Shown here: positions 5,572-64,000 of the stretch, in pieces
Numbering within the stretch: the stretch's first letter is position 1
How the letters are laid out: every line of letters starts with the position of its first letter
From: Desulforamulus hydrothermalis Lam5 = DSM 18033
Lineage (GTDB): Bacteria; Bacillota; Desulfotomaculia; Desulfotomaculales; Desulfotomaculaceae
NCBI RefSeq assembly: GCF_000315365.1
Contig: NZ_CAOS01000003.1
Span: 372,001 to 436,000 of the forward strand
DNA: 64,000 bases
Direction of reading: 5' to 3'
Translations under genes and position numbers: made by a program
The notes under the pieces: generated by a model
Database searches by the model: none
Told to the model about the DNA's origin: nothing
What the model saw: the letters and a program-made list of their open reading frames with translations, nothing else

Positions 5572-5683
5572 ACAGAATCATTAAAAAATTCGACATTGTA
5601 AGACAATAGTTCGACAAAAATTTCTGAATTCCTTTTTCGGTTTTTGTTTTTAGTCAATAAATTTGGGTAAAAAACCGTGCAGG

Positions 5684-6127
5684 TCATATTACTTCCTCAA
5701 TCAGTTTTTTAAGCTGCCTTGCAAAATGCCGGTCGTCCTCCGCCGTACGCTTGCGGGGGCCTTTAGTTCGCCCGCCGGCCCTGCGGTGCCTGGCTTTGAT
5801 TTCCCGTTCTTCCAGCATAAAATCAATGGTGCTCTCACGGTAAATTTTGCCCCAGGGGGATATGGCCGCCGCCCCTTTGGCCAGGATGACAGCGGCCAGA
5901 CCCCAATCCTGCGTAACAACTATATCGCCCCGCCGGGTTAAATTAATAATCTGTATGTCTGCTTCCTGGGCGGCGTTGTCCACCACAATGTGGTGCTGCG
6001 AAGAGATATTGTGCTCTAAACTGGCTACCGTCAACCATGCCAGGCCAAACCGGTTGCAGGTTTGCTGCACGATGGCCAATACTGTTTTAGGACAGGCATC
6101 CGCATCAATAATAATTTGGGGCGGCAT
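5684..6127 (-). CDS. YaiI/YqxD family (UPF0178) protein
   Basis: A 147-residue cytoplasmic protein of a widespread family with a PIN-like fold. The family marks IIIDADACP at the start and VVTQDWGLAAVILAKGA in the middle hold acidic residues that could bind metal. The tail is rich in Arg and Lys (GRTKGPRKRTAEDD), also typical. Function is unproven; a nuclease role is suggested by fold only. The gene lies 39 bp after the FtsA-like gene on the same strand and may be cotranscribed. Confidence 0.88.
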   Translation of the reverse strand: MPPQIIIDADACPKTVLAIVQQTCNRFGLAWLTVASLEHNISSQHHIVVDNAAQEADIQIINLTRRGDIVVTQDWGLAAVILAKGAAAISPWGKIYRESTIDFMLEEREIKARHRRAGGRTKGPRKRTAEDDRHFARQLKKLIEEVI

Positions 6128-6166
6128 TTTTTATCAACCCTTCACTTTGCCTGGATGGGGCCGGCA

Positions 6167-8080
6167 CTACCAGGAAATTTCTATTACATCGCCATCCTGC
6201 AATAATTCTGTATACTCGGCAGCATGGCCGTTTCTCATTATACTAACCTTTCCCTTAGCCTGGCCGGGATCCAGATCGTAATAATTAAAGATATCTATTA
6301 ATATATATTCCTTTTTGCCTGTCATAACCACAGTCCGGCCGTTAACAAGCACTGTTATTGATACCTGGTCCGCCGGAGCCGCTGCAGGCCGGCGGCCTGC
6401 AGCAAAACTTTCGGCCGCCGGCAATACCTCCCGGTTAACTTCAGGCATTGAGAATTCTCTGTTATGTTCATTTGCCTGTAAAACTGCTATTTCTAACACA
6501 TCGCCTGATGCAATAAGCTGTTCCGGATCTGCCGGTTTTCCGTTAAGCAGGCATAGCTGTTGGTGCCCGGCAGCAGCGCCTTCTAAAAAATCACCCACTT
6601 TGGCTGTCGCATCCCGGCCGTTAATTGCTTTTTCCACCAGGATTACGTCACCGTCCTGCAACAGTGTCTTTAAATGGGCCGGCCGCCCGTTTACGGTAAT
6701 TGCCGCCGGTTTAGCCAGCTGGCCATAGACCGTTTTGGGTTTACCGTTCAAGGTAAATTGCAAGTCCTTCCCATGACGCCCCAGCAATTCTCTGGGGTTA
6801 AAATTCAGCCGGCTCAGTGCCTGCAGCACGGTTAGATGACCGGTATTGAACAGCGTAAAGGGCCGTCCGTTAACTGTGACAGTAATAAAATTTTGTCCCC
6901 GCTTTTTGGCAGCCAGGGCTGCAATACCTGCCACCGTTACTCCCTCAGGTCCGGTTAGATCTTTACTGCGTGTATCTGACAGGCAGTTAATGTGGGAACG
7001 ATTGCGGATTACCACCCGCTGCGGCAGCAGGCCCAGCTTATGGGCAATTTTTTCTACCAAGGACGGCAATTGAGAACCACCACCCACACACATAACAGAC
7101 TTGGGCGGTGTTTGGCCGTTTAGTTCAAGCACATGCCCGGCAATCTCTGCCGCCAAATTTTCCACAGCGGGCTCTATCATCTTGATAATTTCCGCACAGT
7201 TAACGGTCGCTTTAATACCAAGTACGTCTTGGTATTGTATATTGCCTCCCTGTCCCAGGCTGCGTTTGATTTGTTCTGCAGTCATAAAATCTACCATCAG
7301 GTTTTCCACAATTAATTCTGTGATTTCGTCACCCGCCGTTGGCACCATACCGTATGCAGTTATAGTACCGTCCCTGGAAATGGCAATATCGGTTGTTCCG
7401 GCCCCCACATCCACCAGGGCCAGGTTCAGCAAGCGCAATTGCTCCGGTATAACTACTTCACTGGCAGCTATAGGCTCCAGGGTTAAGCATAAGGGTTCTA
7501 AACCAACCCGCGCCAGTACGGCATATAAACTGTTGACCACCGATGCCGGCAAAAAAGTAGCCAGCACTTCGGCACTGATTTTCTTGCCTCGATGCCCTTC
7601 TAAGTTGGCAATGGGATAATCGTTTAAGTAATATCCCACCACACTGTGACCCACGCAATAAAATTTCTCCTCATCCCCCGGCAGGGCTTCCTCGGCCAAC
7701 AATTCTTGCGCCCTTTGTACCCCCAGCAGTTCAAGGGCATGAATCATTATGGCTTCAATCTCTAAATCCTCAACCAGTTCTTGATCAACCCGGCAACGGC
7801 AAGTTTTTAAGGAACGGCCGGCAGCGGCAATGGCTACTTTTTTCAAGGGTGCTTTTAATTTTTTCTCTAAGGCAGATTTAACTTTCAGCACCGCCTCAGT
7901 CACCCGGGGAATATCGTGGATCTGCCCGTCCAGCATGGCCCTGCTTTGATGTTCAACCATGGCCTGGGCTAATATTTTCATTTGCCCGCCCTTTGGCTCA
8001 ACCACCAGTCCGATAACCGTCCTGGTCCCGATATCTAAGGCAAAAACGGCATTGTTTTCATCGAAGGTTATCTTGGCCAT
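6167..8080 (-). CDS. FtsA-like actin-fold ATPase with C-terminal beta-grasp-like repeats
   Basis: The first ~390 of 637 residues are an FtsA/PilM-type actin-fold ATPase. Phosphate-1 is FALDIGTRTVIGLV, phosphate-2 LALVDVGAGTTDIAI, and the adenosine motif VMCVGGGSQLPSL. The remaining ~245 residues are not FtsA. They repeat a pattern VNGRP...LLQDGDVI: ITVTVNGRPFTLF, AITVNGRPAHL ending LLQDGDVILVE, LCLLNGKPAD ending IASGDVLEI, and ITVLVNGRTVVM ending LLQDGDVIEISW. This looks like several small beta-grasp (ThiS/SLBB-like) modules. There is no C-terminal amphipathic helix like that of true FtsA, and no ftsZ is nearby, so this is probably a paralogue with another scaffolding role. Confidence 0.8.
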   Translation of the reverse strand: MAKITFDENNAVFALDIGTRTVIGLVVEPKGGQMKILAQAMVEHQSRAMLDGQIHDIPRVTEAVLKVKSALEKKLKAPLKKVAIAAAGRSLKTCRCRVDQELVEDLEIEAIMIHALELLGVQRAQELLAEEALPGDEEKFYCVGHSVVGYYLNDYPIANLEGHRGKKISAEVLATFLPASVVNSLYAVLARVGLEPLCLTLEPIAASEVVIPEQLRLLNLALVDVGAGTTDIAISRDGTITAYGMVPTAGDEITELIVENLMVDFMTAEQIKRSLGQGGNIQYQDVLGIKATVNCAEIIKMIEPAVENLAAEIAGHVLELNGQTPPKSVMCVGGGSQLPSLVEKIAHKLGLLPQRVVIRNRSHINCLSDTRSKDLTGPEGVTVAGIAALAAKKRGQNFITVTVNGRPFTLFNTGHLTVLQALSRLNFNPRELLGRHGKDLQFTLNGKPKTVYGQLAKPAAITVNGRPAHLKTLLQDGDVILVEKAINGRDATAKVGDFLEGAAAGHQQLCLLNGKPADPEQLIASGDVLEIAVLQANEHNREFSMPEVNREVLPAAESFAAGRRPAAAPADQVSITVLVNGRTVVMTGKKEYILIDIFNYYDLDPGQAKGKVSIMRNGHAAEYTELLQDGDVIEISW

Positions 8081-8256
8081 AGCACAACCTCACAATGTTT
8101 CTTTTTTATGCTTGTTCGACAATTTTTATAATAATACCTTCTCCGCTGCTATAATCAGTAAAAAAACTGACTCTGGGCATGGCCGTCTCAATTACAAACG
8201 AGCAAATTTGTGCGCCGGCGCAAAGGCTGTGGCAAAAGGCGGCGTCCGCCATCAAG

Positions 8257-8284
8257 AAAAGGGACCCCTTTCGGGAGTCCCTTT
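8257..8284 (-). terminator. terminator of ridA
   Basis: Stem GGGACTCCC/GGGGTCCC around a short loop, followed on the reverse strand by TTTTCTT. It overlaps the ridA stop codon. Confidence 0.7.
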
Positions 8285-8666
8285 ACTTAATATAAACAAC
8301 AGCTTCAATTTCAACTAAAACATTTTTCGGTAAGCAAGATACCTCTACACAAGCCCGGGCCGGCGGTTCATCGCTAAAGTATTGAGCATAAATTTCATTG
8401 ACCCGGGCAAATTGGTTCATATCCTTAATAAAAACAGATGTTTTCACAACATCCCTTAAACTTGCGCCGGCGGCTTCGCAAATAGCCTGCAGGTTTTTGA
8501 TGCACTGCCGGGTTTGATCTTGAATATCTCCTGCCACTACATTGCCGGTAGCCGGATCAATAGGAATTTGGCCGGAAATAAACAGGAAATTGCCGGCTTT
8601 TACTGCCTGCGAGTACGGCCCGATGGCTGCCGGCGCCTGGTCCGTGCTAATAATTGTCTTGTTCAA
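8283..8666 (-). CDS. ridA: RidA family enamine/imine deaminase
   Basis: A 127-residue YjgF/YER057c/UK114 protein that hydrolyses reactive 2-aminoacrylate-type intermediates released by PLP enzymes. The family signature near the C-terminus is present ([19 protein letters not shown]), including the arginine that binds the carboxylate. Other family segments are [19 protein letters not shown] and the [10 protein letters not shown] helix. Length is exactly that of the family. It is a single gene with its own terminator. Confidence 0.93.
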
Positions 8667-8938
8667 CGCAAAACCCTCCCAGATATATAGTTTAATTATG
8701 TGAACAAAAAAACAGGTAAAAACCTGATAGTATATCCTTCGACACTAAACACAAATTACCTTCTAATTTATTAAAATTTTTTAGTAATGTTGCAAATTTT
8801 TTAATAACAAATCTTTAGCTGATCGAGAAGCAAAATAACAAAGGAGGAGAAATATCTCCTCCCAAACTGTCATCAAAAGATGTCAAGGTAGTTTTATATC
8901 CCCTGCCGGCGACTTGTGAAGCGCCGGCAACGATTTGT
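8667..8938. other. intergenic region between ridA and hcp
   Basis: AT-rich 272-bp gap. It holds the hcp terminator (8830-8862) and a second G+C-rich hairpin at 8905-8928 directly after the hcp stop. No coding region was seen. Confidence 0.5.
8830..8862 (-). terminator. probable hcp terminator
   Basis: On the reverse strand GGAGGAGA and TCTCCTCC pair perfectly across a 4-nt loop, followed by TTTGTTATTTTG. Confidence 0.65.
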
Positions 8939-10567
8939 TTATTTGTTTAATATAGCTGCCAGATCTTCGTCCGGGGTAGTTATAGGTTTAATGTTAAAGT
9001 TTTTCACCAGCACATCCAGCACATTGGGCGAAATAAAGGCCGGCAAACTGGGCCCCAGGCGGATATTTTTAATCCCCAGGTACAAGAGAGTAAGCAGGAT
9101 GGCAACTGCTTTTTGTTCATACCAGGACAGTATCAGAGAAAGAGGCAAATCATTAACTTCGCATTGGAAGGCATTGGCCAGGGCCACCGCAATTTGTATA
9201 GCAGAATAAGCATCATTGCACTGGCCGATGTCTAACAGCCTGGGAATACCACCGATATCGCCCAGCTTTTTATCAAAGAATCGGAATTTACCGCAAGCCA
9301 GAGTTAAAATTACTGTATCTGCCGGGGCTTTCTCCACAAATTCGGTATAGTAGTTGCGGCCGGGTTTTGCTCCGTCGCAGCCTGCCACCAGGAAAAAGTG
9401 TTTAATATCACCGTTTTTAACCGCTTCAATAACTTTACCGGCCACCCCCATTACAGTGTTGCGGGCAAATCCAACCAGAACACTGCCCTTATCTTCGTCT
9501 GAGGGAAATCCTGGCAAAGCCAAGGCCCTTTCAATCACCGGAGCAAAATCACCGTTCTTCACATGCTGCACGCCAGGCCAACCAACCTGTCCGGTGGTAA
9601 AGATGTTGTCCGTATAGCCTTGGGGATCCTGAATGCAGTTGGTAGTCATCAAAATAGCACCGGGAAATGCAGCAAACTCTTTTTTCTGGTTTTGCCAGGC
9701 TGTACCGTAATGACCATAAAAGTGCGGATACTTCTTCAATTCAGGATAGCCGTGGGCCGGCAGCATTTCGCCATGGGTGTATACATAAATACCTTTACCC
9801 TCGGTTTGCGCCAGTAAATCTGCCAGGTCTTGCAGATCATGACCGGACACCAGTATGCATTTGCCGGATTTGTGGCCAAGAGGCACTGAGGTGGGTACCG
9901 GGTGACCGAATTTTCCTGTATTGGCAGCATCCAGCAATTCCATAACCCGCAGGTTCACTTCGCCACACTTGAGAACAAGGCCAACCCAATCGTTTAAAGT
10001 AAGATCTTTATCGGTCAAGGCAGCCATACCCTGGTAAATAAAGCCATAGACAGCGTCGTCAGACTGACCAAGGATGGCGGCATGGTCAGCATAGGCTGCA
10101 ATCCCTTTGAGGCCGTAAACCAATATTTGCTGCAGGGATTGGATATCGGCATCAGCCGTATGGTCGTTAACCATTCCCACTGCCTCACCCTGTTTAACCA
10201 AACCGTCCAGATCAGCTGCCGGTTGAAAACCGGCAGACGGGTCTTCAAAAGTTACCTTGCCGCCGGCCGCTGACACTTTGGTTTTAAGTACATCCCGGTA
10301 TTCCACACACTGGTTAATTAGCGGTATAAATCTTTGGGCATCGAAGTTAACGTTGGTCAAGGTGCTAAACATGGCACCAACCGTAAATCTGTCAATGGCA
10401 GGCTCTACCACTCCCACCTGGCGTCCTGCATGGGCATAAAGGGACAAGCCTTTTAAGGCATGCAGCAGTAAATCCTGCAAAGCAGCCACATCCGGCTTCT
10501 TGCCGCAGACACCTAACACCGTACAGCCGGTACCCTTGGCAGTTTGTTCGCACTGGTTACAAAACAT
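8939..10567 (-). CDS. hcp: hybrid cluster protein (hydroxylamine reductase)
   Basis: A 542-residue cytoplasmic iron-sulfur protein carrying a cubane cluster and the Fe-S-O hybrid cluster; it reduces hydroxylamine and NO-derived species. The N-terminal cysteines follow C-X2-C-X8-C-X5-C (MFCNQCEQTAKGTGC...C). Later motifs that ligate the hybrid cluster are visible: VSGHDLQDL, TNCIQDP, VAGCDGAKPGR, LACGKFRFF and IGQCNDAYSA. The start is placed at the ATG at 10567 because MFCNQCEQ is the family start and GGGGG lies upstream; an earlier in-frame ATG would add 18 atypical residues. A CRP/FNR-like site precedes it. Confidence 0.95.
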   Translation of the reverse strand: MFCNQCEQTAKGTGCTVLGVCGKKPDVAALQDLLLHALKGLSLYAHAGRQVGVVEPAIDRFTVGAMFSTLTNVNFDAQRFIPLINQCVEYRDVLKTKVSAAGGKVTFEDPSAGFQPAADLDGLVKQGEAVGMVNDHTADADIQSLQQILVYGLKGIAAYADHAAILGQSDDAVYGFIYQGMAALTDKDLTLNDWVGLVLKCGEVNLRVMELLDAANTGKFGHPVPTSVPLGHKSGKCILVSGHDLQDLADLLAQTEGKGIYVYTHGEMLPAHGYPELKKYPHFYGHYGTAWQNQKKEFAAFPGAILMTTNCIQDPQGYTDNIFTTGQVGWPGVQHVKNGDFAPVIERALALPGFPSDEDKGSVLVGFARNTVMGVAGKVIEAVKNGDIKHFFLVAGCDGAKPGRNYYTEFVEKAPADTVILTLACGKFRFFDKKLGDIGGIPRLLDIGQCNDAYSAIQIAVALANAFQCEVNDLPLSLILSWYEQKAVAILLTLLYLGIKNIRLGPSLPAFISPNVLDVLVKNFNIKPITTPDEDLAAILNK

Positions 10568-12053: not shown

Positions 12054-12091
12054 ATCGAGTAGGAGGGGGTGACTAACCCCCGTCCTCTCAC

Positions 12092-12123
12092 ACCACCGTA
12101 CGTACCGTTCGGTATACGGCGGT
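12092..12123 (-). ncRNA. group II intron domain V
   Basis: A 32-nt hairpin begins right after the reverse transcriptase stop. Nine base pairs (ACCGCCGTA against TACGGTGGT) and an upper stem TACC/GGTA carry a GAAC loop. The lower stem holds CGC where most introns have AGC; a CGC triad is the class C form. Confidence 0.75.
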
Positions 12124-13536
12124 TCATGTCGTGGAACGAAGCTCGTTGTACCTTTCGGCTAAACTCCTGAGCCCTTGTTCTCGCCAGAAGGCGAGGCCAA
12201 GGGCTTTATTTAATTGTGGAGTTTTGGATAATCTCCAGTACCCTTTTCTTGAACCACTTATCAGCGATGCCCATTCCGGCGGTATTCCTAGTGCTACTAG
12301 TTTTCTTTTCTTGGTTTTTGGCTTCTTCCACTGTTTTAGGTAACACATTCGTAGCCGCCGACGTAGCCATTCGTCAAAGGCTTGAAATACGGTTTTAGTA
12401 TCCGCTAGCCTGTAATAACCAACCCACCCAATTGTGTAGGTGTTAATTTTCTCAATTCTTTTGCTCATGGGTTGACTCTTGCTGCGGCTGGTTAATTCCC
12501 GTATTTTATCTTTGAACCGCCTCTTAGTTTTGGGGGCCACTGTGATTTTGGGTTCTTTGCCAGAGGTAAATGAGAACCCGAGAAATTTTCTTCTCCACGG
12601 TCTGTCAACCGCACTTTTCTGTGTGTTGACCTTGAGTTTTAATCTTTCTTCTACAAGTCTTTTGACACTGGCCATAACCCTTTTTCCTGCCCTACTACTC
12701 TTCACATAGATATTACAGTCGTCAGCATATCTGACAAACTTGTGCCCTCTTCTCCAGAGCTCCCAATCCAATTCATTCAGCATTATATTGGCAAGAAGTG
12801 GACTTAGCGGTCCTCCCTGCGGGGTTCCTTCTTCTGTTGTAATACAGCAGCCGTTTACCATTACACCTGCTTGAAGGTATCTCCGAATAAGTAGTAATAC
12901 TCTTTTGTCTTGGACTCTTCGGGCAACTCTGGACATTAGTATGTCGTGGTTCACCTTATCGAAGAATTTCTCCAAGTCCATGTCTACTACCCAACGGTAT
13001 CCTTCTTTTATATAGTCCCGTGCCGTTTTCACTGCTGAATGGGCTCTTTTGTTGGGACGAAAACCGAAACTGAATGGTGTAAAGGTTGGTTCAAAGATGT
13101 CATTCAGGACTTGTAGTAGTGCCTGTTGGATGAGGCGGTCTAACACCGTTGGTATCCCTAGTAACCTTATTCCTCCGTCTGGCTTCGGGATTTCGACTCG
13201 ACGTACAGGTTTGGGTCGATAGGTTCCGTTTAGGAGTTGTTCTCTGATTTCTGGCCAGTGGTCTTTCAGAAATGGTCGAAGGGATTCTATCGTCATTCCA
13301 TCTATACCAGCTGCACCTTTATTAGACTCCACCCGGTGTAATGCATAGAACATATTGTCTTTTGCTACCACTCGTTCCATCAGGTTTGTACAACTTTCTT
13401 CGCGGGTCGTTTCTCTGGGTTGCGCCGGAGAAGAGCTCGGCACTCCTTCAGTCCCCCGTGTATTCACCACTTCCTCCTGAAGGTAGTTCTCATTTGAGAT
13501 TTTCTGCTGTCTTTGCTTTCCTCTCGAGCTTGCCAT
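12124..13536 (-). CDS. ltrA: group II intron reverse transcriptase/maturase
   Basis: A 470-residue intron-encoded protein. Reverse transcriptase blocks are visible: KGAAGIDGMTIE, RLLGIPTVLDRLIQQA, WVVDMDLEKFFDKVNHD, GTPQGGPLSPLLANI and the active-site YADD in FVRYADDCN. A GIIM maturase domain follows (INTYTIGWVGYYRLADT). No HNH endonuclease motif is present. The reading frame is intact and ends at the first base pair of domain V. It helps splice the intron and copy it into new sites. It looks functional. Confidence 0.95.
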   Translation of the reverse strand: MASSRGKQRQQKISNENYLQEEVVNTRGTEGVPSSSPAQPRETTREESCTNLMERVVAKDNMFYALHRVESNKGAAGIDGMTIESLRPFLKDHWPEIREQLLNGTYRPKPVRRVEIPKPDGGIRLLGIPTVLDRLIQQALLQVLNDIFEPTFTPFSFGFRPNKRAHSAVKTARDYIKEGYRWVVDMDLEKFFDKVNHDILMSRVARRVQDKRVLLLIRRYLQAGVMVNGCCITTEEGTPQGGPLSPLLANIMLNELDWELWRRGHKFVRYADDCNIYVKSSRAGKRVMASVKRLVEERLKLKVNTQKSAVDRPWRRKFLGFSFTSGKEPKITVAPKTKRRFKDKIRELTSRSKSQPMSKRIEKINTYTIGWVGYYRLADTKTVFQAFDEWLRRRLRMCYLKQWKKPKTKKRKLVALGIPPEWASLISGSRKGYWRLSKTPQLNKALGLAFWREQGLRSLAERYNELRSTT

Positions 13537-13941
13537 GAACTTCCCTCACAATCATGTTCAGCCCTTCCCTGCTTGGACGTCTCCTTGCAAGTACTATGGC
13601 CTCTGCTGACTCCTGCCGGTTCAGCCGTACATCTCTGCACGGGTTACCAATTTAATTGGCGTATCCGGCAGGTCTCCCCGGGTAAGGACGTTATCTTTTC
13701 CTCCATCTACCCGCCCCATTTACTCTCGACAGCCTTCGGTAGCATGGGCTTTGCTTTGTTGTGCAAGCTCACCCAACTGTCGCTAGCCTCACCTGGGGTT
13801 CGTGGTCCTCGGGCCGGAGGTTTGCCGCTGACTTCCTTCAGATTCCATCTCACGATGGACACCCTTGTCTTAAGCTACGGCTACTGCTACCTTCACCGTT
13901 CGGGACTTTCACCCTATAGATAACGCCCATGCCGGGCGCAC

Positions 13942-23005: not shown

Positions 23006-23953
23006 TCACCTACTTGATAAAGCAAGGTGTTTCAAGTCATGCCAGACAGAGTGAAACGATTCCTGTTTGTAACGGGTCAAACCGTTGTGTACAGAAATCT
23101 TTCCGTCCAGCCGCTTGAAGAGTTGCTTCACCTTTCGGGTCATCCCTCTTCCTTCCCCAGGCAAGGAATTTACCTTTTGACTCAGCTTCTCTTTGACGGC
23201 CTGAACTTTCTGCTTTAACTCTTTGGTAATGCGCTCTCTAAAACCTATCGCCCGCCGGGCTATCACTAATGCCGCGGCGTGGTGGATAGTTATGCCGTAA
23301 CGCTCCATGTATTTGTAATAGCCGATGGTGGACGTGTGCGCCGGCCAGACTTGCTTTACACCGACGCCTTCTTTGAAGGCTTTACGGGTGACGGCCTCGA
23401 CCATCTTCTTGAACGGAAAATTGGCCGCCATGCGGTTGAATTTCCGGTTGGTGTCAAAACGGTCTTTGCCGAAGTCCAGGCTCTCTAAAGCGATGGGTTT
23501 GCCTAAAGTTTTAGCTGTGTCCACCACTACTTTGGCAAGCACGCCAATTAAGTACGTGCGCCGGAAGCCCCGGCTGTAGGACAATTCTGGTACCTTGATG
23601 TAAAGAAAACCGTTCGGGTGCATGGTTATCTGAAATTCCCCGGCGAATTTGTGCAGTGCTTTCGGATAGGGTACGGTGAAACCTTCCGGCCAGGGCGTTG
23701 GCTGTCCGGTGTAACTGACGTTGGCCAGCGCTGCTCCGTCGGGGTTGGTGTCTACACCCAGGTAACCCTGGTTGGGGTTGGTCACTAAAACGGGGGCTGT
23801 AACGGCAAAGGTGATGTGCACCCTATACCGGCTGTCCCTACCTTTGATTAGCTCCACAGTGTAAGGCACACCTGATAAGAGCAGCTCCAGCACTTTTTGC
23901 CGGTGCTTCTCAGGCAGCCAGAGCTTACCCGTTACCCGGGGGGCCCTGGTCAT
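23006..23953 (-). pseudogene. tnpB: tnpB, C-terminal part
   Basis: A 315-codon frame with the RuvC-like nuclease core of TnpB: Asp in YLGVDTNPDGAALANV and Glu in KPIALESLDFGK. The usual third Asp before the C-terminal helix is not seen; the aligned segment reads YGITIHHAAALVIARR. No CXXC zinc ribbon is present either. The frame opens upstream of its first ATG and continues the N-terminal part in a shifted frame, so the two are halves of one gene. Confidence 0.75.
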
Positions 23954-23960
23954 TATGGGT

Positions 23961-24716
23961 CTACCCTTCTTGTCTGTCCCTTTTCTGTTCGGACAGGTGA
24001 GAGATGGTCACAGACAGGGTGAACTCTCCATTATGCCAGCTTATTTTGAGATTCGGGTTGCCGCCTTTGGTCTCGTCGCCGCGGGCGTATAGCCTGTCCT
24101 GCCGGGCCTGCCGCCATTCTTCTCTCGAAACCCTGCCTCTGCACACTCGCTTCCACAGAGAGCGGCCTCCGAAAATTACTTTTGGTATGGTGCCGTTGTC
24201 CCGGTGGACCTTTAGCTCGTCCAGCTTGTCAGCCAGCTTTTTTACCCTGGCTTTGCGGCCGTGTACGGTGTGCTTAAAGTCCTCGATTTTAGCCTGATTG
24301 TTTGCTTTAACGGCCCTGTCCAGGTCTTTTTCTGCCCAACGGAGTTTCTTCTTGGCGCGGGCTAACTTTGCTTCTGTTTCTTCGCTGTCCAATTCAAGCA
24401 GCTCTGTTTGCGATTCAGTTACGGCTTTGGCTTTCAGTATGGCGTCGTCGCAATAGCGGGAGTTTATGCTGAATGTTCCTTGACCCTGCTTCTTTATCTC
24501 TGGGCGGGAATTATCTTCCTGTAACCGGTTGAAGGCCCAGCGGGTGCAGGAGCAGAACAGCCGCATCTCGGTGTCTAACGGATCCTCCATCCCGCGGCTC
24601 CACTTTTGAGAGCGGAAGGCAGGGTAAACCTCCGGAAAAAATTCGCCGCAGACGGTGTAGCTTATGTCGCCACCGGTCTTAGTCGGCTTCTTCTTGTTGT
24701 TCTTCCGTTTTTTCAC
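23961..24716 (-). pseudogene. tnpB: tnpB, N-terminal part
   Basis: A 251-codon frame ending at TAG 23963-23961. It has a Lys-rich start, a coiled helical stretch (ETEAKLARAKKKLRWAEKDL, then a Lys/Arg-rich helix) and a beta strand (KISWHNGEFTLSVTIS) that in intact TnpB leads into the RuvC part. The next frame needs a +1 shift near 23975-23995. Single-base loss or gain is the simplest cause. Its start overlaps tnpA by 38 bp. Confidence 0.75.
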
Positions 24717-25344
24717 TTTGAGATGCCTCCGCTATCAGTCCCCGAAAACCCTGCCTGACCTTCTTCCCGCCTCTGGCGCTATACAGCCGGGCCGAAAAAG
24801 ACGTTACTATTGCCAATAAGTCCCTGACCAATTCGGATTGTGCGTCTTCCGGCTCTTTTTCAGCTATGGCTACGATCTCTACGCCACAGTACCTTAAATG
24901 CCGCTCAATGTACGAATACCCGAACCGGGCCAGCCGGTCGGGATATTCGATAATTAGTTTTTTGTACTCACCCCGCTCGGCCAGCTTGAGCACGTTTGTC
25001 AGACCGTGGCGTTTTTGGTTTAAACCGCTGGCTACGTCGGTGAACTCGGCAACAACACGGTAATGCGACTCGATCACATATTGCCTCAGCCTTTCCAGTT
25101 GCCTGTTTAAGTTGCCGGCATCCGCCTGCTTTTTGGTGGACACCCGGGCGTAAAGCACAACTGCTTCTTGACTATCAGTTAATTGACCGGACTGTAAAAG
25201 CCTGTTGAGTTCGTCCATGGAATACCGGCGCTGACCGCCAGGTGAACGGACAGGCTTAATCAAACCTTGCTTTTCCCAGTTGCGCAGGCTGTTCGGATGT
25301 ACACCTAATTTCTTTGCCGCTTTGCTTATAGTTAATAGTTCCAT
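24679..25344 (-). CDS. tnpA: IS607 TnpA serine recombinase
   Basis: A 221-residue transposase with an N-terminal MerR-type helix-turn-helix (LTISKAAKKLGVHPNSLRNWEKQG, shown here in part, residues ~4-50) and a serine-resolvase catalytic domain. The nucleophile is the Ser of LYARVSTKKQ (residue ~69); the Arg-containing YPDRLARFGY motif is present. The frame is intact, so the element may still move its ends. Confidence 0.92.
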   Translation of the reverse strand: MELLTISKAAKKLGVHPNSLRNWEKQGLIKPVRSPGGQRRYSMDELNRLLQSGQLTDSQEAVVLYARVSTKKQADAGNLNRQLERLRQYVIESHYRVVAEFTDVASGLNQKRHGLTNVLKLAERGEYKKLIIEYPDRLARFGYSYIERHLRYCGVEIVAIAEKEPEDAQSELVRDLLAIVTSFSARLYSARGGKKVRQGFRGLIAEASQSEKTEEQQEEAD

Positions 25345-57571: not shown

Positions 57572-57850
57572 CTAACTTTGGTGGCAGACTTGGAATGATT
57601 CGGGTTGCCGGAAATGAATGCTGTCTACCGTAACCCCCTGCAGTTCCTGCAGTTCTCGTTCCATTTGCCGGTATTCTTCCTCTGTGGCTTCCATAGTTAA
57701 TGTAATGATACCCCTTTCCCGGCTGGGGCTGGGGATGCCGTTACGGCATAAAATATTGCTCCCGTAGCGAGTAATCACTTGCTGTACATCAGGCGCTTTG
57801 GTGCTTCGCTCATCCACCATCAGGCCCACTACAAAAATATCCTTCTGCAC
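57572..57850 (-). CDS. TM1266-family (iron-only hydrogenase system) regulator
   Basis: A 92-residue ACT-like protein. Motifs: FVVGLMVDERSTKAPDVQQV, YGSNILCRNGIPSPS and GIITLTMEAT. The family is named for its place beside [FeFe] hydrogenase maturation genes; none are visible here. It may bind nickel or an amino-acid-like ligand. The redox operon to the right is on the same strand, 93 bp away. Confidence 0.88.
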   Translation of the reverse strand: MQKDIFVVGLMVDERSTKAPDVQQVITRYGSNILCRNGIPSPSRERGIITLTMEATEEEYRQMERELQELQGVTVDSIHFRQPESFQVCHQS

Positions 57851-57943: not shown

Positions 57944-59062
57944 TTAGTGTTTGCCGGTATTAAGTTCTTCCAGCTCATGCTCTTTATAAACAGTCAAAGG
58001 TATAGGTTCATCCAGCGAGCGTCCCGGCTCGTAGGCAAAACGGTCCTGGTTGGCTTGGGACAGGGCCTGAAACATAAGACCGACGGGAATATCCATGGGG
58101 CAGGCATTTTCGCACTGCCCGCAGCCAACGCAGGAGAGACCCATATGGTTGACCCTGGTCAGGTGGAATAACACGGTATCAGTCGGTAGTTCGATGGCGC
58201 CTTTCCGCTTAGCATATTCCATGTATTTTTCACCGTTATGGTCAAAAATAGGACCGGCGGACACGCATTCACGGCAGAAGCAAATGGGGCAGGCCTGCCG
58301 GCAGTTCTGGCACTTAATGCAGGTGGCCAGTACAGCAGCCAGTTTTTCCATATCTGTCACGTTATTTTTAAATTCAGAAACAGCCTTCTCTTTGGCCTGT
58401 TTCTTTTCTTCCGCCAGCTTGGCCAATAATTTAATCCTGGTATCCGGCGTGTTGGCAGATACTAAACCATCCAGTCCGGCAAGATCAACTTCATCTCTGG
58501 CAGTTATTAACAGGTTGCCGCCCATCCCCAGCCAGCCCAAGATAATGTCAGCGTTGCCTGCTTCGGGATAGGCACATACGGTACAGGCCCTACGCTGTGC
58601 TGCTCCGGTAGGGTTTTTGCCGTCGGCAGCCATGTTGACCCATTGTTTAGCATCAAAATTATTTTCTTTAACCATGGCGGCATAATCTTTGGCCGCAAAA
58701 GTACCGGCGCAATCCACACCGATAATAAGCAAATTATCCAGCTTGGCCTGCTGCAGCTTAACCAGTTCGTACAGGGCACGCAGTTCACAGGATCGGAGTA
58801 CCACTGCAACCTTTGCCGGCAAATTACGGGAAAGGTTGGCCACTAACCTGGCTGTATTAAAGCTGTTAACCGGTGCAAAAGGATTAACCCCCTCAAACAG
58901 GGCCGGATCTTTTATTAAGACAGGTACCACATTGGTTTTTGCTGCCACCTCACGGGGGGCCAATACAGCACTAACCTTACCGGAGGTAATTAATGACTTA
59001 AAAAACTCCTGAACGGCACCCAGGGTATTCCCTCCGCCTGGTTTTAACAAGTAAGTATTCAT
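57944..59062 (-). CDS. FrhB/FdhB-like iron-sulfur flavoprotein with C-terminal ferredoxin
   Basis: A 372-residue protein. The N-terminal ~200 residues resemble the beta subunit of F420-reducing hydrogenase/formate dehydrogenase (AVVLRSCELRALYELVKL; IGVDCAGTFA). The C-terminal part holds two [4Fe-4S] motifs CIKCQNCRQACP and CVGCGQCENACP, like HdrC. GGGAGG precedes the ATG. It is the last gene of an operon after mvhD. It probably links the HdrA complex to an electron donor or acceptor such as NADH, F420 or formate. Confidence 0.82.
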   Translation of the reverse strand: MNTYLLKPGGGNTLGAVQEFFKSLITSGKVSAVLAPREVAAKTNVVPVLIKDPALFEGVNPFAPVNSFNTARLVANLSRNLPAKVAVVLRSCELRALYELVKLQQAKLDNLLIIGVDCAGTFAAKDYAAMVKENNFDAKQWVNMAADGKNPTGAAQRRACTVCAYPEAGNADIILGWLGMGGNLLITARDEVDLAGLDGLVSANTPDTRIKLLAKLAEEKKQAKEKAVSEFKNNVTDMEKLAAVLATCIKCQNCRQACPICFCRECVSAGPIFDHNGEKYMEYAKRKGAIELPTDTVLFHLTRVNHMGLSCVGCGQCENACPMDIPVGLMFQALSQANQDRFAYEPGRSLDEPIPLTVYKEHELEELNTGKH

Positions 59063-59080: not shown

Positions 59081-59527
59081 TTAGATTTCCCAGTTTTTAC
59101 GCAGCGGGTTAGGTCCTAGCTGTTTCAGCTTTTGGGTCATTTCAGTGATAACTTCCCCAAAGTAGGCACCCTGGGAAGCACTGATAAAGCGCAGCCATAA
59201 CCGCTCATCGGGGATACCAAGTTGTTGGAGTACGTTTCTGGCAATGGCCACTTTACGACGGGCCTTGTAATTGCCACTACCATAGTGGCAGTCACCTTCG
59301 TGTCAACCACCCACCAAAACGGCATCCGCACCGTCAAGAATGGGTTTAATCATATAAAGTGGGTCCACCGAACCGCTGCACATTACTCGGATAATCCTTA
59401 CGTTAGGGGGATACTGGATACGGGCTGTACCGGCCAAATCCGCACCGGTGTAGGAACACCAGTTACAGAGTATGGCGATAATCTTGGGTTCGAACTCAGT
59501 TTGAATTTTTTGTTCAGGTACACTCAT
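59081..59527 (-). CDS. mvhD: MvhD-family electron-transfer subunit, selenoprotein (UGA as Sec)
   Basis: The reading frame from ATG 59527 is broken only by UGA at 59305-59303. Reading it as selenocysteine gives one 148-residue protein: CNWCSYTGADLAG near the start, VMCSGSVDP, then DAVLVGG-Sec-HEGDCHYGSGNY (Sec is residue 75), then YKARRKVAIARNVLQ, ending WEI. MvhD homologues have Cys at this position (GGCHPGDCHY), a [2Fe-2S] ligand. VhuD of methanococci also carries Sec here. It passes electrons to HdrA. Spacing to hdrA (20 bp) and the FrhB-like gene (18 bp) shows an operon. Confidence 0.92.
59272..59305 (-). promoter_or_regulatory. bacterial SECIS-like hairpin of mvhD
   Basis: After the UGA (59305-59303) the RNA forms UGCCACU/AGUGGCA, 7 perfect pairs, with loop AUGGU at 20-24 nt. 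GGU stands at 22-24 nt, the same distance as in the SelW-like gene. Confidence 0.7.
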
Positions 59528-59547: not shown

Positions 59548-62500
59548 CTAGCTGTTACTGGCATCCAACATGGCGATGATTTGCCCTTTCTCAAAGCCCT
59601 TTTGCTGGCAGGCACCGCTGGGACAGGTGGCCACACAGGCCCCGCAGCCCTGACATAGCACATCCAGCACTTCTGCCACGCCGGTCAGTTCATTTAGCAC
59701 TCTTGCCCCGTATGGACAAGCCTGCACACACAATCCGCATCCCTTGCACCACTTGGGGTTAACCATGGCTACATTACCCAGAGATTCCAATTTGTCCTTA
59801 GACAGCAGGGTTGTGGCCCGGATAGCGGCAGCATTGGCCTGGGCAATGGATTCTTCAATCAGTTTAGGCGAGTGGGCCAGGCCGCACAGGTATAATCCGT
59901 CAGCAGCAAAATCCACCGGCCGCAGTTTCATATGAGCTTCCAGGAAGTAACCGTCTGCGTTTAAAGATACTTTGAAGATTTGACTTAAGGTTTCCGTACC
60001 CTGGGCGGGAATAACACCGGTGCTAAGTACCAAAAGATCGGTATCTAATTGTAGTTCCCTTTTTAAAATGTGGTCGGTAACGATAACCTTTAATTTATCC
60101 CCGTCAGCCTCTGCTTTGGGTGGCTGTTCCAAGGTGTAGCGCACAAAGACCACGCCTTTTTTTCTGGCCTCGGCGTAATATTTTTCATAAAAACCATAGG
60201 TGCGAACATCCCGGTAAAGAATAAATATATTGGCCTCAGGATTTTGTTCTTTAATTTTCAGGGCATTTTTCACGGCACTGTAGCAGCAAATACGGCTGCA
60301 ATAGGGTCGCTCACTGTTGCGGGAGCCCACGCATTGAATCATAACAATGTTGCGTGCCTTGCCAAGACCGGTGCTCGCCAGCCGATGTTCCAATTCCCGC
60401 TGGGTCAGCACGCCCGGGTGTTGCCCGTAAAGGTATTCTGTGGTGGCAGCAGCCTCAGCCCCGGTGGCTATTATCACTACACCATGCTCCACCGGTCGAT
60501 CACCGCCGGGCGTATTCAAGGTGGTTTGATAATTGCCTAAATACCCTGACACTTCTTTGACAGTGGAATTAAGGTTAAGTTCAATGCCGGGATGCTTTTG
60601 CACCTCTTGCACCAGTCGGTTTACCAGCTGAGCCGGATCGCTGCCTTTCATGGTATATTTAACTTCCAGGGCATTACCACCCAGCTTATCATTTTTCTCC
60701 ACCAGGATTACTTTAAAGCCCTGGTCTGCCAGGTTAAGGGCCGCGGTCATCCCGGCGACGCCACCGCCGATTACCAGAGCCCGGCGATTGATGTCCATAA
60801 ATGAGGTGTACACCGGCTTAAGCAATTTAACTTTTGCCACCGCCATTTTAACTAAATCTTTTGCTTTTTCGGTGGCAGCATCCGGTTGATCCCTATGCAC
60901 CCAGGAGGCATGCTCCCGAATATTTGCCTGTTCAAACAGGTAAGGGTTAAGTCCCGCTTCTTTCAGGCTGCTCATAAACAGGGGAGCGTGGGTTCTGGGT
61001 GTACAGGAAGCCACTACGACCCGGTTTAACTTATGCTGGTTAATCCGTTCTTTAATTTTTTCAATACTGTCCTGGGAACAGCTGAACAGGAATTCTTCGC
61101 TGTGTACCACGCCGGGCAAGTTTGCGGCAAATTGGGCCACTTCCGGTACCCGCACGACACTGCCGATATTAATACCGCAGTTGCAAACAAACACGCCCAC
61201 CCTTGGTTCTTCCTGAGTGATATCCCGTTCCGGCGGGTATTCCTTGACCTTGCTCAGGGTACCCCGCACGGCGCTTAATAAACGTGATGCATTGGCTGCT
61301 GCTGCACTGGCGTCAACCACGGTTTCCGGAATGTCTTTGGGGGCACAAAAGGCACCGCTGGCAAATACCCCGGACCGGCTGGTCTGGCCGGGAATAAATT
61401 CTGAGGTCTGGCAAAAACCGTATTCGTCTAATTCAATACCGCAAGCCCTGGCCAGTTTGGCATTGCTCGAAGCAGGTTTTAAACCTACCGATAAAATTAC
61501 CATGTCAAATTCTTCTTCGCTAAAGGAACCGTCAGCATTGCGATAGCGGATGATCAGGTTGTGGGTGGCAGGATCTTCTTTTACCGTAGAAACCATGGCT
61601 TTTTCGTATTGTACCCCGTGCTGCAGGCGGGCCCGGTCATAATATTTTTCAAAATCTTTGCCATAAGCCCGTACATCCATATAAAAAATCTTGGTTTGCA
61701 GACCAGGTTCATGTTCCTGGGCAATAATGGCATGTTTGGTGGCATACATGCAGCAAACAGCCGAACAGTAATGATTGCCCTTGGCGCTGTCACGGGAACC
61801 AACGCATTGAATAAAAGCAATTCGCTTGGGCTCCACATGATCCGAAGGACGTACCAGGTGGCCCATGGTGGGACCGCTGGCTGAAAGCAGCCGCTCAAAC
61901 TGCAGGCTGGTTAATACGTTGGGGAAACGCCCCCAGCCAAATTCTTCCCGCAGGTTGCCGTCCATCGGTTCAAAACCCGGGCTTAAAATTACTGCACCCA
62001 CTGCCAGCTCCAGTTCGGTGTCAGCCATGCTGTGGTCAATGGCTCCTGCCGGACAGGCCTTGATACATTTGCCGCAGGCCTTGGGATTTTTGATTTTTAA
62101 ACATTTGCTTTTATCCACGGCATAAGCGTTGGGGGTAGCCTGGGCATACAATTTATAAATGGCCTTACGCTTGCCTAAACCGCCGTCAAAATCATCCTCC
62201 ACCTTCACCGGACATGCCTCAGCGCAAGCACCACAGCCGATACATTTGTCTAAACTGACACAGCGGGCCTGCTGCAGCACCTTGGCTTTAAAGTTGCCCG
62301 GCTCCCCTTCTAAGCCAACCAGCTCTGCCCCGGTAATAATTTCAATATTAAGATGCCGCCCCACATCAACCAGTTTGGGTGACATGGTGCACATGGCACA
62401 GTCGTTGGTGGGGAAGGTTTTGTCCAGCCTGGCCATGGTTCCACCGATGGCGGGCTTTTTCTCCACCAGATATACCCGGTAGCCTGCTTCGGCCAGGTCC

Positions 62501-62571
62501 AGGGCGGACTGCATGCCTGATATGCCTCCGCCCACAACCAGAACCGCACCGATTTGTTTTTTATCCGTCAT
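59548..62571 (-). CDS. hdrA: HdrA-like electron-bifurcating flavoprotein, long form
   Basis: A 1007-residue protein with two HdrA-type halves. The N-terminal half has the FAD motif VVGGGISGMQSALDLAEAGY, TNDCAMCTMSPKL, and ferredoxin motifs CIGCGACAEACP and CGKCIKACP. Near residue 480 lies another Hdr-type segment VFVCNCGINIG. The C-terminal half has a second FAD motif (VIGGGVAGMTAALNLADQGF) and a final 2[4Fe-4S] domain (CKGCGLCVQACPYG, CQGCGACVATCPSG). It is the FAD core of an Hdr/Mvh complex. The start is ATG 62571 after GGAGGAACCT; an earlier ATG would overlap the upstream gene. Confidence 0.9.
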   Translation of the reverse strand: MTDKKQIGAVLVVGGGISGMQSALDLAEAGYRVYLVEKKPAIGGTMARLDKTFPTNDCAMCTMSPKLVDVGRHLNIEIITGAELVGLEGEPGNFKAKVLQQARCVSLDKCIGCGACAEACPVKVEDDFDGGLGKRKAIYKLYAQATPNAYAVDKSKCLKIKNPKACGKCIKACPAGAIDHSMADTELELAVGAVILSPGFEPMDGNLREEFGWGRFPNVLTSLQFERLLSASGPTMGHLVRPSDHVEPKRIAFIQCVGSRDSAKGNHYCSAVCCMYATKHAIIAQEHEPGLQTKIFYMDVRAYGKDFEKYYDRARLQHGVQYEKAMVSTVKEDPATHNLIIRYRNADGSFSEEEFDMVILSVGLKPASSNAKLARACGIELDEYGFCQTSEFIPGQTSRSGVFASGAFCAPKDIPETVVDASAAAANASRLLSAVRGTLSKVKEYPPERDITQEEPRVGVFVCNCGINIGSVVRVPEVAQFAANLPGVVHSEEFLFSCSQDSIEKIKERINQHKLNRVVVASCTPRTHAPLFMSSLKEAGLNPYLFEQANIREHASWVHRDQPDAATEKAKDLVKMAVAKVKLLKPVYTSFMDINRRALVIGGGVAGMTAALNLADQGFKVILVEKNDKLGGNALEVKYTMKGSDPAQLVNRLVQEVQKHPGIELNLNSTVKEVSGYLGNYQTTLNTPGGDRPVEHGVVIIATGAEAAATTEYLYGQHPGVLTQRELEHRLASTGLGKARNIVMIQCVGSRNSERPYCSRICCYSAVKNALKIKEQNPEANIFILYRDVRTYGFYEKYYAEARKKGVVFVRYTLEQPPKAEADGDKLKVIVTDHILKRELQLDTDLLVLSTGVIPAQGTETLSQIFKVSLNADGYFLEAHMKLRPVDFAADGLYLCGLAHSPKLIEESIAQANAAAIRATTLLSKDKLESLGNVAMVNPKWCKGCGLCVQACPYGARVLNELTGVAEVLDVLCQGCGACVATCPSGACQQKGFEKGQIIAMLDASNS

Positions 62572-62590
62572 AGGTTCCTCCAACCTCCCA

Positions 62591-64000
62591 TCACAGAGCC
62601 GCATCCATCATGGCCAGCAGCTGATCTTTGGCGAAGCCTTTTTGCTGGGTAGCGCCACTGGGGCAAGCTGCCACGCAGGCACCGCAGCCCTGGCAAAGCA
62701 CTTCCCGTACATAGGCAACTCCCCTGCGTTCGTCCAGCACCCGGGCACCGTAAGCACAAGCGCTTACACAAATGCCGCAGCCCTTGCAGAGCTCCAAATC
62801 CACTTCGGCGGTAATGCCCAGCGATTCCAGCCTGCCCTTGGACAACAAAGTTACCGCACGGATGGATGCCGCATTGGCCTGGGCAATGCACTCATTAACA
62901 GTCTTGGGTCCATGGGCCAAACCGCAGAGGTAAAGCCCGTCCGCCGCAAAATCAACCGGCCTCAACTTCATGTGAGCCTCCAGATAGAAACCGTCCGCGT
63001 TTAAAGGAACTTTAAACAGCTGGCTTAGAACTTCAGTATCCGGCCTTGGTTTTATTCCGTTAGCCAGGGCTAAAATATCAGCATCAATTTTAACGGGCTG
63101 CTGCAGCACATGATCGTTTACGGTTACAGTTACTTTGTTGCCGTTGGCAACCACCTGCGGTTTATTGTCAAGACTGTAGCGGATAAAGATAACGCCCTGC
63201 CGCCTGGCCTCGGTGTAATATTCTTCTTTGAAGCCGTAAGTACGAATATCTCGGTACAGGATTACCACCTGAGCAGCCGGATTCAATTTTTTAACCTGCA
63301 AAGCGTTCTTAATGGCTTGACTGCAACAAACCCTGCTGCAGTATGGTCTGTCCGGTTCTCTCGAACCAACACAGTTTATCATAACAACTGTCCGGGCATC
63401 TCCCAGCCCCTGGTCGGCCAGTTTTTGCTCCAATTGGGTTTGGGTTATCACCGCCGGATGGCTGCCATAGAGGTAGCTGTCCGGTACAACTTCATCGGCG
63501 CCGGTGGCAATTACAACCGCCCCGTGTTCTACCTCCAGCTTGTTGCCGTCGCTTTGTACCAGAGTGGTTTTATAGTTGCCCAGATAACCGGTTACCTCTG
63601 TGACCTGGGCGTTAAGGACCACATCTATTAATTGATTGGCTGTTACATCGGCTTTCAGTTTTGCCACAAAGGCGGGTATGTCTTCGCCCTGCAGGCTGTA
63701 CCGCAGTTCGGTGGCCCGGCCGCCTAAGTTGCCGGTTTTTTCTACCAGGGTAACGGCATAACCCTGTTCCGCCAAAGACAGGGCGTTCGTCAGGCCGGCT
63801 ACGCCGCCGCCCACCACCAGCACCCGCTGATTGACATCAATAAAAGTGGTTTGCACAGGCTTTAACAACCGCACCTTGTAAACAGCCATTTTAACTAAAT
63901 CCTTGGCTTTTTCGGTTGCTTCCGCCGGATGTTCCCGGTGCACCCAGGAGGACTGCTCACGAATGTTGGCATGCTCGTACAAGTAAGGATTTAAACCGGC
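62591..64000 (-). CDS. hdrA: second HdrA-like protein, C-terminal part
   Basis: The visible 469 codons run off the right edge and correspond to the C-terminal half of HdrA. It has an FAD motif VVGGGVAGLTNALSLAEQGY, CSRVCCSQAIKNALQVK, and a closing ferredoxin domain (CKGCGICVSACAYG, CQGCGACVAACPSG). It is collinear with the downstream hdrA and about half or more identical by eye, so the pair arose by tandem duplication. 19 bp separate the two genes, so they are in one operon. Confidence 0.9.
   Translation of the reverse strand, partial: AGLNPYLYEHANIREQSSWVHREHPAEATEKAKDLVKMAVYKVRLLKPVQTTFIDVNQRVLVVGGGVAGLTNALSLAEQGYAVTLVEKTGNLGGRATELRYSLQGEDIPAFVAKLKADVTANQLIDVVLNAQVTEVTGYLGNYKTTLVQSDGNKLEVEHGAVVIATGADEVVPDSYLYGSHPAVITQTQLEQKLADQGLGDARTVVMINCVGSREPDRPYCSRVCCSQAIKNALQVKKLNPAAQVVILYRDIRTYGFKEEYYTEARRQGVIFIRYSLDNKPQVVANGNKVTVTVNDHVLQQPVKIDADILALANGIKPRPDTEVLSQLFKVPLNADGFYLEAHMKLRPVDFAADGLYLCGLAHGPKTVNECIAQANAASIRAVTLLSKGRLESLGITAEVDLELCKGCGICVSACAYGARVLDERRGVAYVREVLCQGCGACVAACPSGATQQKGFAKDQLLAMMDAAL

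Follow-up and report, generated by a model that had tools for sequence, protein, structure and literature searches.

An in-frame UGA in mvhD of Desulforamulus hydrothermalis is predicted to encode selenocysteine at a conserved cysteine position

The mvhD gene of an hdr operon in Desulforamulus hydrothermalis carries a single in-frame UGA, at codon 75, and comparative analysis strongly supports a reading in which SelB and Sec-tRNA would decode this codon as selenocysteine (Sec), the signal being an in-frame bSECIS hairpin with its loop 20 nt past the UGA. We put the probability at roughly 0.93 that mvhD is an ordinary bacterial selenoprotein gene, the whole explanation including a role of its product as an electron connector and possible ligation of an iron-sulfur cluster by Sec75. 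The gene is a confirmed instance of a selenoprotein family that is already known, in a genus for which it had been predicted. The window, i.e. the whole stretch of DNA that was analysed, comprises 64,000 nucleotides; its relevant features, together with two genes lying beyond it, are listed below.

59081..59527, minus strand: mvhD, 148 aa with one in-frame UGA (PF02662 match, alignment, PDB matches, fold)
59303..59305, minus strand: UGA codon 75, predicted to be read as selenocysteine (TGA-as-Sec translation; conserved position)
59267..59295, minus strand: bSECIS-type hairpin, with an inner 8-bp stem and UGG loop at 59290..59272, the loop 20 nt past the UGA
59548..62604, minus strand: hdrA (1018 aa), which immediately precedes mvhD and has no stop codon within its frame (ORF and domain searches)
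62591..64000, minus strand: 3' part of a second hdrA, 1481 aa, whose N-terminal region includes a GltD-like NAD(P)H domain; the whole gene, at 5592-10037 of the longer stretch L024, starts beyond the window
L024 10058-10915 and 10961-11521: hdrB and hdrC, further upstream, beyond the window
57944..59062, minus strand: FrhB/FdhB-like 4Fe-4S protein of 372 aa, encoded immediately 3' of mvhD (FrhB_FdhB_C, 27.5 bits, cut-off 23.3)

Results

The mvhD gene and its product

A preliminary description of this DNA had placed mvhD correctly at 59081-59527 and was silent on the strand, which we found to be minus; the plus strand of the same interval gives a different, interrupted reading. With TGA translated as Sec, the minus-strand frame runs for 148 aa and contains a single TGA, codon 75 at 59305..59303, in agreement with the earlier statement that this UGA is the only break in a full-length gene. 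Standard ORF calling yields a 74-aa ORF ending at the UGA, and so splits the protein in half. The product matches PF02662 (FlpD/MvhD) over residues 16-138, covering profile positions 1-123 of 123 (167.8 bits, cut-off 22.3), and scores 143.1 bits against the NCBIfam VhuD model NF045873, under its cut-off of 215. The alignment proposed for codon 75 with MvhD-family homologues was carried out on 16 proteins, with TGA entered as Cys, and places the UGA in an invariant Cys column, which in Cys homologues is the Cys of G-C-H-x-G-D-C-H. Among six distinct PDB sequence matches, all five printed alignments have Cys at this position.

A structural model built from the 16 sequences (mean pLDDT 87.3, pTM 0.82) retrieved MvhD-type chains at Foldseek ranks 1-4 (5odh_D, 5odc_D, 8rvu_F and 7bkb_F; TMq 0.83-0.85), with rmsd values of 1.1-1.3 Å and identities of 53-56%, and the predicted fold matches the MvhD fold of solved Hdr complexes. 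The MvhD of the Mvh-Hdr complex (5ODC/5ODH) resembles the model closely (53% identity, rmsd 1.2-1.3 Å); it differs in having Cys at position 75 and a [NiFe]-hydrogenase as partner.

Operon context

The genes around mvhD are arranged in the order hdrC, hdrB, 1481-aa hdrA, 1018-aa hdrA, mvhD and the 372-aa FrhB/FdhB-like gene, and ORFs and domain matches bear out the HdrA/FrhB-like operon context assigned to mvhD in the preliminary description. The GltD-like NAD(P)H region of the 1481-aa HdrA matches PRK12771 at 553.4 bits (cut-off 516); the NCBIfam HdrA2 model scored under its cut-off, and NCBIfam gave no match for the 372-aa protein. Of the 30 loci compared, 15, the window's own included, combine the same end of hdrA with a closely similar fdhB-like neighbour (at least 71% identity); D. 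putei, D. aquiferis and D. aeronauticus are represented among these 15. Just downstream of the operon, on the same strand, lies a putative TM1266-family regulator (57572-57850, minus strand; TIGR03959, 66.2 bits, cut-off 60.8). Elsewhere in the window, two regions on the minus strand contain group II intron pieces around an ORF resembling its reverse transcriptase (12054-13859) and ORFs resembling an IS607-type recombinase together with TnpB pieces (23006-25344), the ORFs in both regions being named by eye.

Selenocysteine machinery and other MvhD copies in the genome

The genome (2.69 Mb, 16 contigs, 99.94% complete) encodes the full set of sel genes that the preliminary description had proposed as a check, and absence of the Sec machinery, which would have spoken against a selenoprotein, was not what we found. 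SelA (632.8 bits) and SelB (386.7 bits), both above cut-off, are encoded by adjoining genes; the tRNA-Sec gene selC (70.8 bits, anticodon TCA), which also has an Rfam match, is located on the same contig. SelD scores 411.2 bits, above cut-off, and its own frame contains one TGA, in the stretch GUAAK. A second match to the tRNA-Sec model (49.3 bits) lies slightly above the gathering score. About 1.2 kb from the tRNA-Sec gene there is a molybdenum/tungsten cofactor riboswitch (L001 184-323, 63.3 bits).

PF02662 occurs three times in this genome. Two copies, the one in the window and one on contig C11, are stand-alone genes with one TGA each, in both cases at codon 75. The third is part of a long frame without TGA and is taken as QmoB, given its position after apr-like and qmoA-like ORFs, these ORFs being named by eye. 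The hdrA upstream of the C11 copy (L025 5025-8108, on G000:C11) shows at least five frame changes within about 1 kb, and is either a decayed gene or one affected by local sequence errors.

Conservation of the UGA

All 10 genomes of the family Desulfotomaculaceae contain PF02662, in a total of 36 rows. The 24 full-length stand-alone copies each have one TGA in the domain (24/24). The remaining rows lack TGA: eight belong to frames of 722-732 aa, a length that suggests QmoB, and four are short pieces. In the genus genome G006, a single contig of 3.6 Mb, mvhD occurs as a pair near 0.15 Mb and as a further copy near 1.43 Mb, each gene with one TGA. The closest named relatives by MvhD protein, D. 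putei (99% identical), D. aquiferis (95%) and D. aeronauticus (93%), have UGA75 as well.

These data bear on a rival explanation, in which mvhD is a Cys gene and the UGA an error of sequencing or assembly. The frame switches in hdrA of the second locus (at least five in about 1 kb) make local sequence errors conceivable in this genome; UGA75 is nevertheless shared by the independent assemblies of the three named relatives and by every full-length stand-alone copy of the family. A sequencing error, raised in the preliminary description as a possible refutation, was tested in this way and did not hold; we reject it as vanishingly improbable.

PF02662 was detected in 160 of the 398 sampled genomes of the phylum, and copies with and without TGA both occur among the matches listed. 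We inspected 179 FlpD loci by codon, leaving aside the controls (L001-L020) and the long stretches (L024-L028); 83 contain TGA, at codon 75 in 82 and at Cys24 in one, and because the set was chosen partly for having TGA, the position of the TGA is meaningful and the ratio of Sec to Cys copies is not. Among the others, 89 have Cys at all five positions conserved in the family, six have Asp at position 24 and one is partial. The single Cys24 case comes from an Eisenbacteria MAG (L201 3001-3402) and reads CNWU. Among nine TGA-containing FlpD copies read from four Asgard genomes (L235-L243; Borrarchaeum, a Borrarchaeota MAG and Sifarchaeum), two carry Sec at position 24, three at 75 and four at both.

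SelA scores above cut-off in 256 of the 398 genomes. When the tables of TGA copies and of SelA were compared by eye, a SelA match was present in 47 of 47 genomes outside the genus with a TGA copy among the matches listed, the weakest at E = 5.7e-92. Cys-only genomes among the matches listed include some without a SelA match (G015, G058, G059, G062) and others with SelA, e.g. G307; Sec and Cys versions can also co-occur within one genome, as in G013 and G060.

The frame 3' of the UGA is conserved up to the C-terminus, and changes in it are nearly all synonymous, which shows that this part of the gene is under selection. Compared with four relatives (L166-L169), mvhD of the window shows 30, 41, 54 and 60 synonymous codon differences and 1 to 10 non-synonymous ones. 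This pattern argues against the UGA being a true stop that leaves a pseudogene or a 74-aa protein, the product that standard calling suggests by ending the ORF at the UGA. Confinement of the UGA to one Cys codon (82/83, bar the Cys24 case) and the presence of both sel genes and a bSECIS hairpin likewise stand against a true stop, which we regard as very improbable; a pseudogene is rejected given the mostly synonymous change past the UGA. Together, sequencing error and pseudogene are effectively excluded.

A conserved bSECIS hairpin

The sequence UGCCACUA-UGG-UAGUGGCA begins 12 nt past UGA75 and forms an 8-bp stem without mismatch, with G as the second nucleotide of the loop. Bacterial SECIS elements are described as having a loop of 3-9 nt with G in the first two positions, a stem of 4-16 bp and a spacing of 16-37 nt (PMC13188914). 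The hairpin of the window, with 8 bp, a UGG loop and 20 nt, agrees with these rules.

Taken alone, this hairpin is unexceptional: dinucleotide shuffling gave z -1.69, with 16 of 200 shuffles equally good, and its own synonymous null gave 0.105. Since tests on the window alone are weak, we compared Sec with Cys copies and used a synonymous-codon null, requiring the bSECIS rules and a stem of at least 7 bp; the sequences are related, and p-values are therefore indicative only. Such a hairpin is present in 63 of 64 distinct Sec segments, in contrast to 2 of 89 Cys segments and none of six QmoB-type segments. When the Sec set was recoded with synonymous codons, 28 of 3200 versions had one. The sole Sec segment that failed (L093) has the stem, with a loop lacking G in place. 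Codons 80, 82 and 84 are TGC, TAT and AGT, each in 63 of 64 Sec segments, whereas Cys copies use TGC and TGT (49/40) at codon 80, TAT and TAC (47/41) at codon 82 and many codons at 84. Within codons 76-88, the window differs from L166-L169 by 0, 1, 0 and 1 synonymous changes.

In a free-energy test, the mean z was -1.21 for Sec and +0.12 for Cys segments, with 10 of 64 and 2 of 89, respectively, reaching 0.05 singly, and RNAalifold returned -10.9 kcal/mol for Sec and 0 for Cys segments. We gave no weight to covariation because the stem is nearly invariant. An Rfam search found no match over the mvhD region; to our knowledge, Rfam holds no general bSECIS model. The case for the hairpin rests on comparison, and the Sec, Cys and synonymous counts argue against a chance structure. 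The selenoprotein assignment of the preliminary description is strongly supported by the Sec machinery, this conserved hairpin and the conservation of the UGA.

Discussion

Relation to known selenoproteins

Bacterial Sec-containing FrhD proteins (MvhD family) were tabulated in 2006 for Syntrophobacter fumaroxidans, Syntrophomonas wolfei, Carboxydothermus hydrogenoformans, Moorella thermoacetica and others (PMC1794560). The same table lists two copies, without residue position, for Desulfotomaculum reducens, now Desulforamulus (PMC1794560); family and genus are those of the window, two Sec copies occur in each genome, and no difference is apparent from that table. The preliminary description had stressed that the Sec-containing MvhD is bacterial, which is real here and is not new, given the 2006 prediction that includes D. 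reducens (PMC1794560). Desulfobacterium autotrophicum HRM2 was reported in 2009 to contain four mvhD selenoproteins, mvhD1, 2, 3 and 5 (PMC2702500). These, too, are bacterial Sec MvhD proteins encoded beside hdrA or hdrL genes; they differ from the present case in belonging to another phylum and in that some Hdr proteins are themselves described as selenoproteins (PMC2702500), while the two hdrA frames of the present operon have no internal UGA.

The preliminary description had also likened the protein to VhuD of methanococci. The likeness stands insofar as both are Sec proteins of the MvhD family that feed HdrA; a shared Sec position is doubtful. A 2026 review gives CxxU as the Sec motif of the family, citing a VhuD paper (PMC13188914), and a 2022 review lists no motif. 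By the motif in the 2026 review, Sec in VhuD apparently corresponds to Cys24, as opposed to Sec75 here; the SECIS of VhuD is of the archaeal kind. The window MvhD does not show the CxxU arrangement, having Cys at 24 and Sec at 75.

In D. reducens, six proteins encoded by Dred_1325-1330 rise under sulfate reduction, the MvhD Dred_1329 with log2 changes of 0.75, 4.6 and 4.1 versus pyruvate, Fe(III)-citrate and Fe(III)-oxide, respectively; a bifurcating complex that would feed DsrC is proposed in that study (PMC4759654). The word selenocysteine does not occur in the main text of that paper (PMC4759654). Gene order is the same as in the operon described here, namely HdrC, HdrB, a large HdrA with NADH-binding domains, HdrA, MvhD and a formate-dehydrogenase-like protein, the match being made by gene order and names in Table 4 and the text rather than by D. 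reducens sequences (PMC4759654). Based on homology and this operon, the 148-aa MvhD would act as iron-sulfur connector in a soluble HdrC-HdrB-HdrA-HdrA-MvhD-FdhB-like complex. During sulfate reduction it may relay electrons towards the HdrA flavin, their source being a module of the NAD(P)H or FrhB/FdhB-like kind.

Role of residue 75

MvhD is stated to bind a [2Fe-2S] cluster, which in Mvh-Hdr lies more than 30 Å from the flavin, the hand-over being unexplained (PMC6019823, PMC12350162). FlpD/MvhD proteins have five conserved Cys, at positions 21, 24, 50, 75 and 80. The [2Fe-2S] cluster is presumed to have four ligand places. Our model has its first three strands at residues 16-21, 43-48 and 69-74, and each of the five residues either closes one of these strands or sits in a loop that follows them, so that any four could hold the cluster. 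Sec75 lies in these loops, where the cluster is expected, and is a possible iron ligand. The six QmoB-type copies have Asp at 24 and keep Cys at 21, 50, 75 and 80; this loss of Cys24 mildly favours Cys75 as a ligand. The preliminary description had treated residue 75 as a cluster ligand at which Sec would change the redox behaviour of the cluster; ligation is plausible, and with somewhat better than even confidence we suggest that Sec75 may be an iron ligand.

MvhD could instead be a selenoprotein in which Sec75 does not bind iron and lies next to the cluster, either in its second shell or as a redox-active residue, a realistic if clearly less than even prospect. The surplus of five conserved Cys over a presumed four ligand places points in this direction, as does Sec at both 24 and 75 in four of the nine Asgard TGA copies; the QmoB-type copies, which drop Cys24 and keep the other four, speak against it, the cluster in the QmoB-type domain being itself putative. 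Since the Asgard copies have Sec at 24, at 75 or at both, the Cys24 and Cys75 places would both accept Sec.

A literature search, in which subscription journals were scarcely covered, found no biochemical test of Sec in a bacterial MvhD. Given that Sec and Cys versions of MvhD coexist in nature (G013, G060), Sec ligation of the cluster is a testable chemical question. Tentatively, and a little short of even odds, we propose that Sec75 is a direct iron ligand, giving a selenolate-ligated [2Fe-2S] cluster tuned for the hand-over from MvhD to the HdrA flavin; if so, the hdr pathway would depend on selenium, because a Cys version is absent from the two stand-alone mvhD genes of this genome. Given that both stand-alone copies have Sec, the Hdr complex, with its presumed role in sulfate reduction in these bacteria, probably needs selenium.
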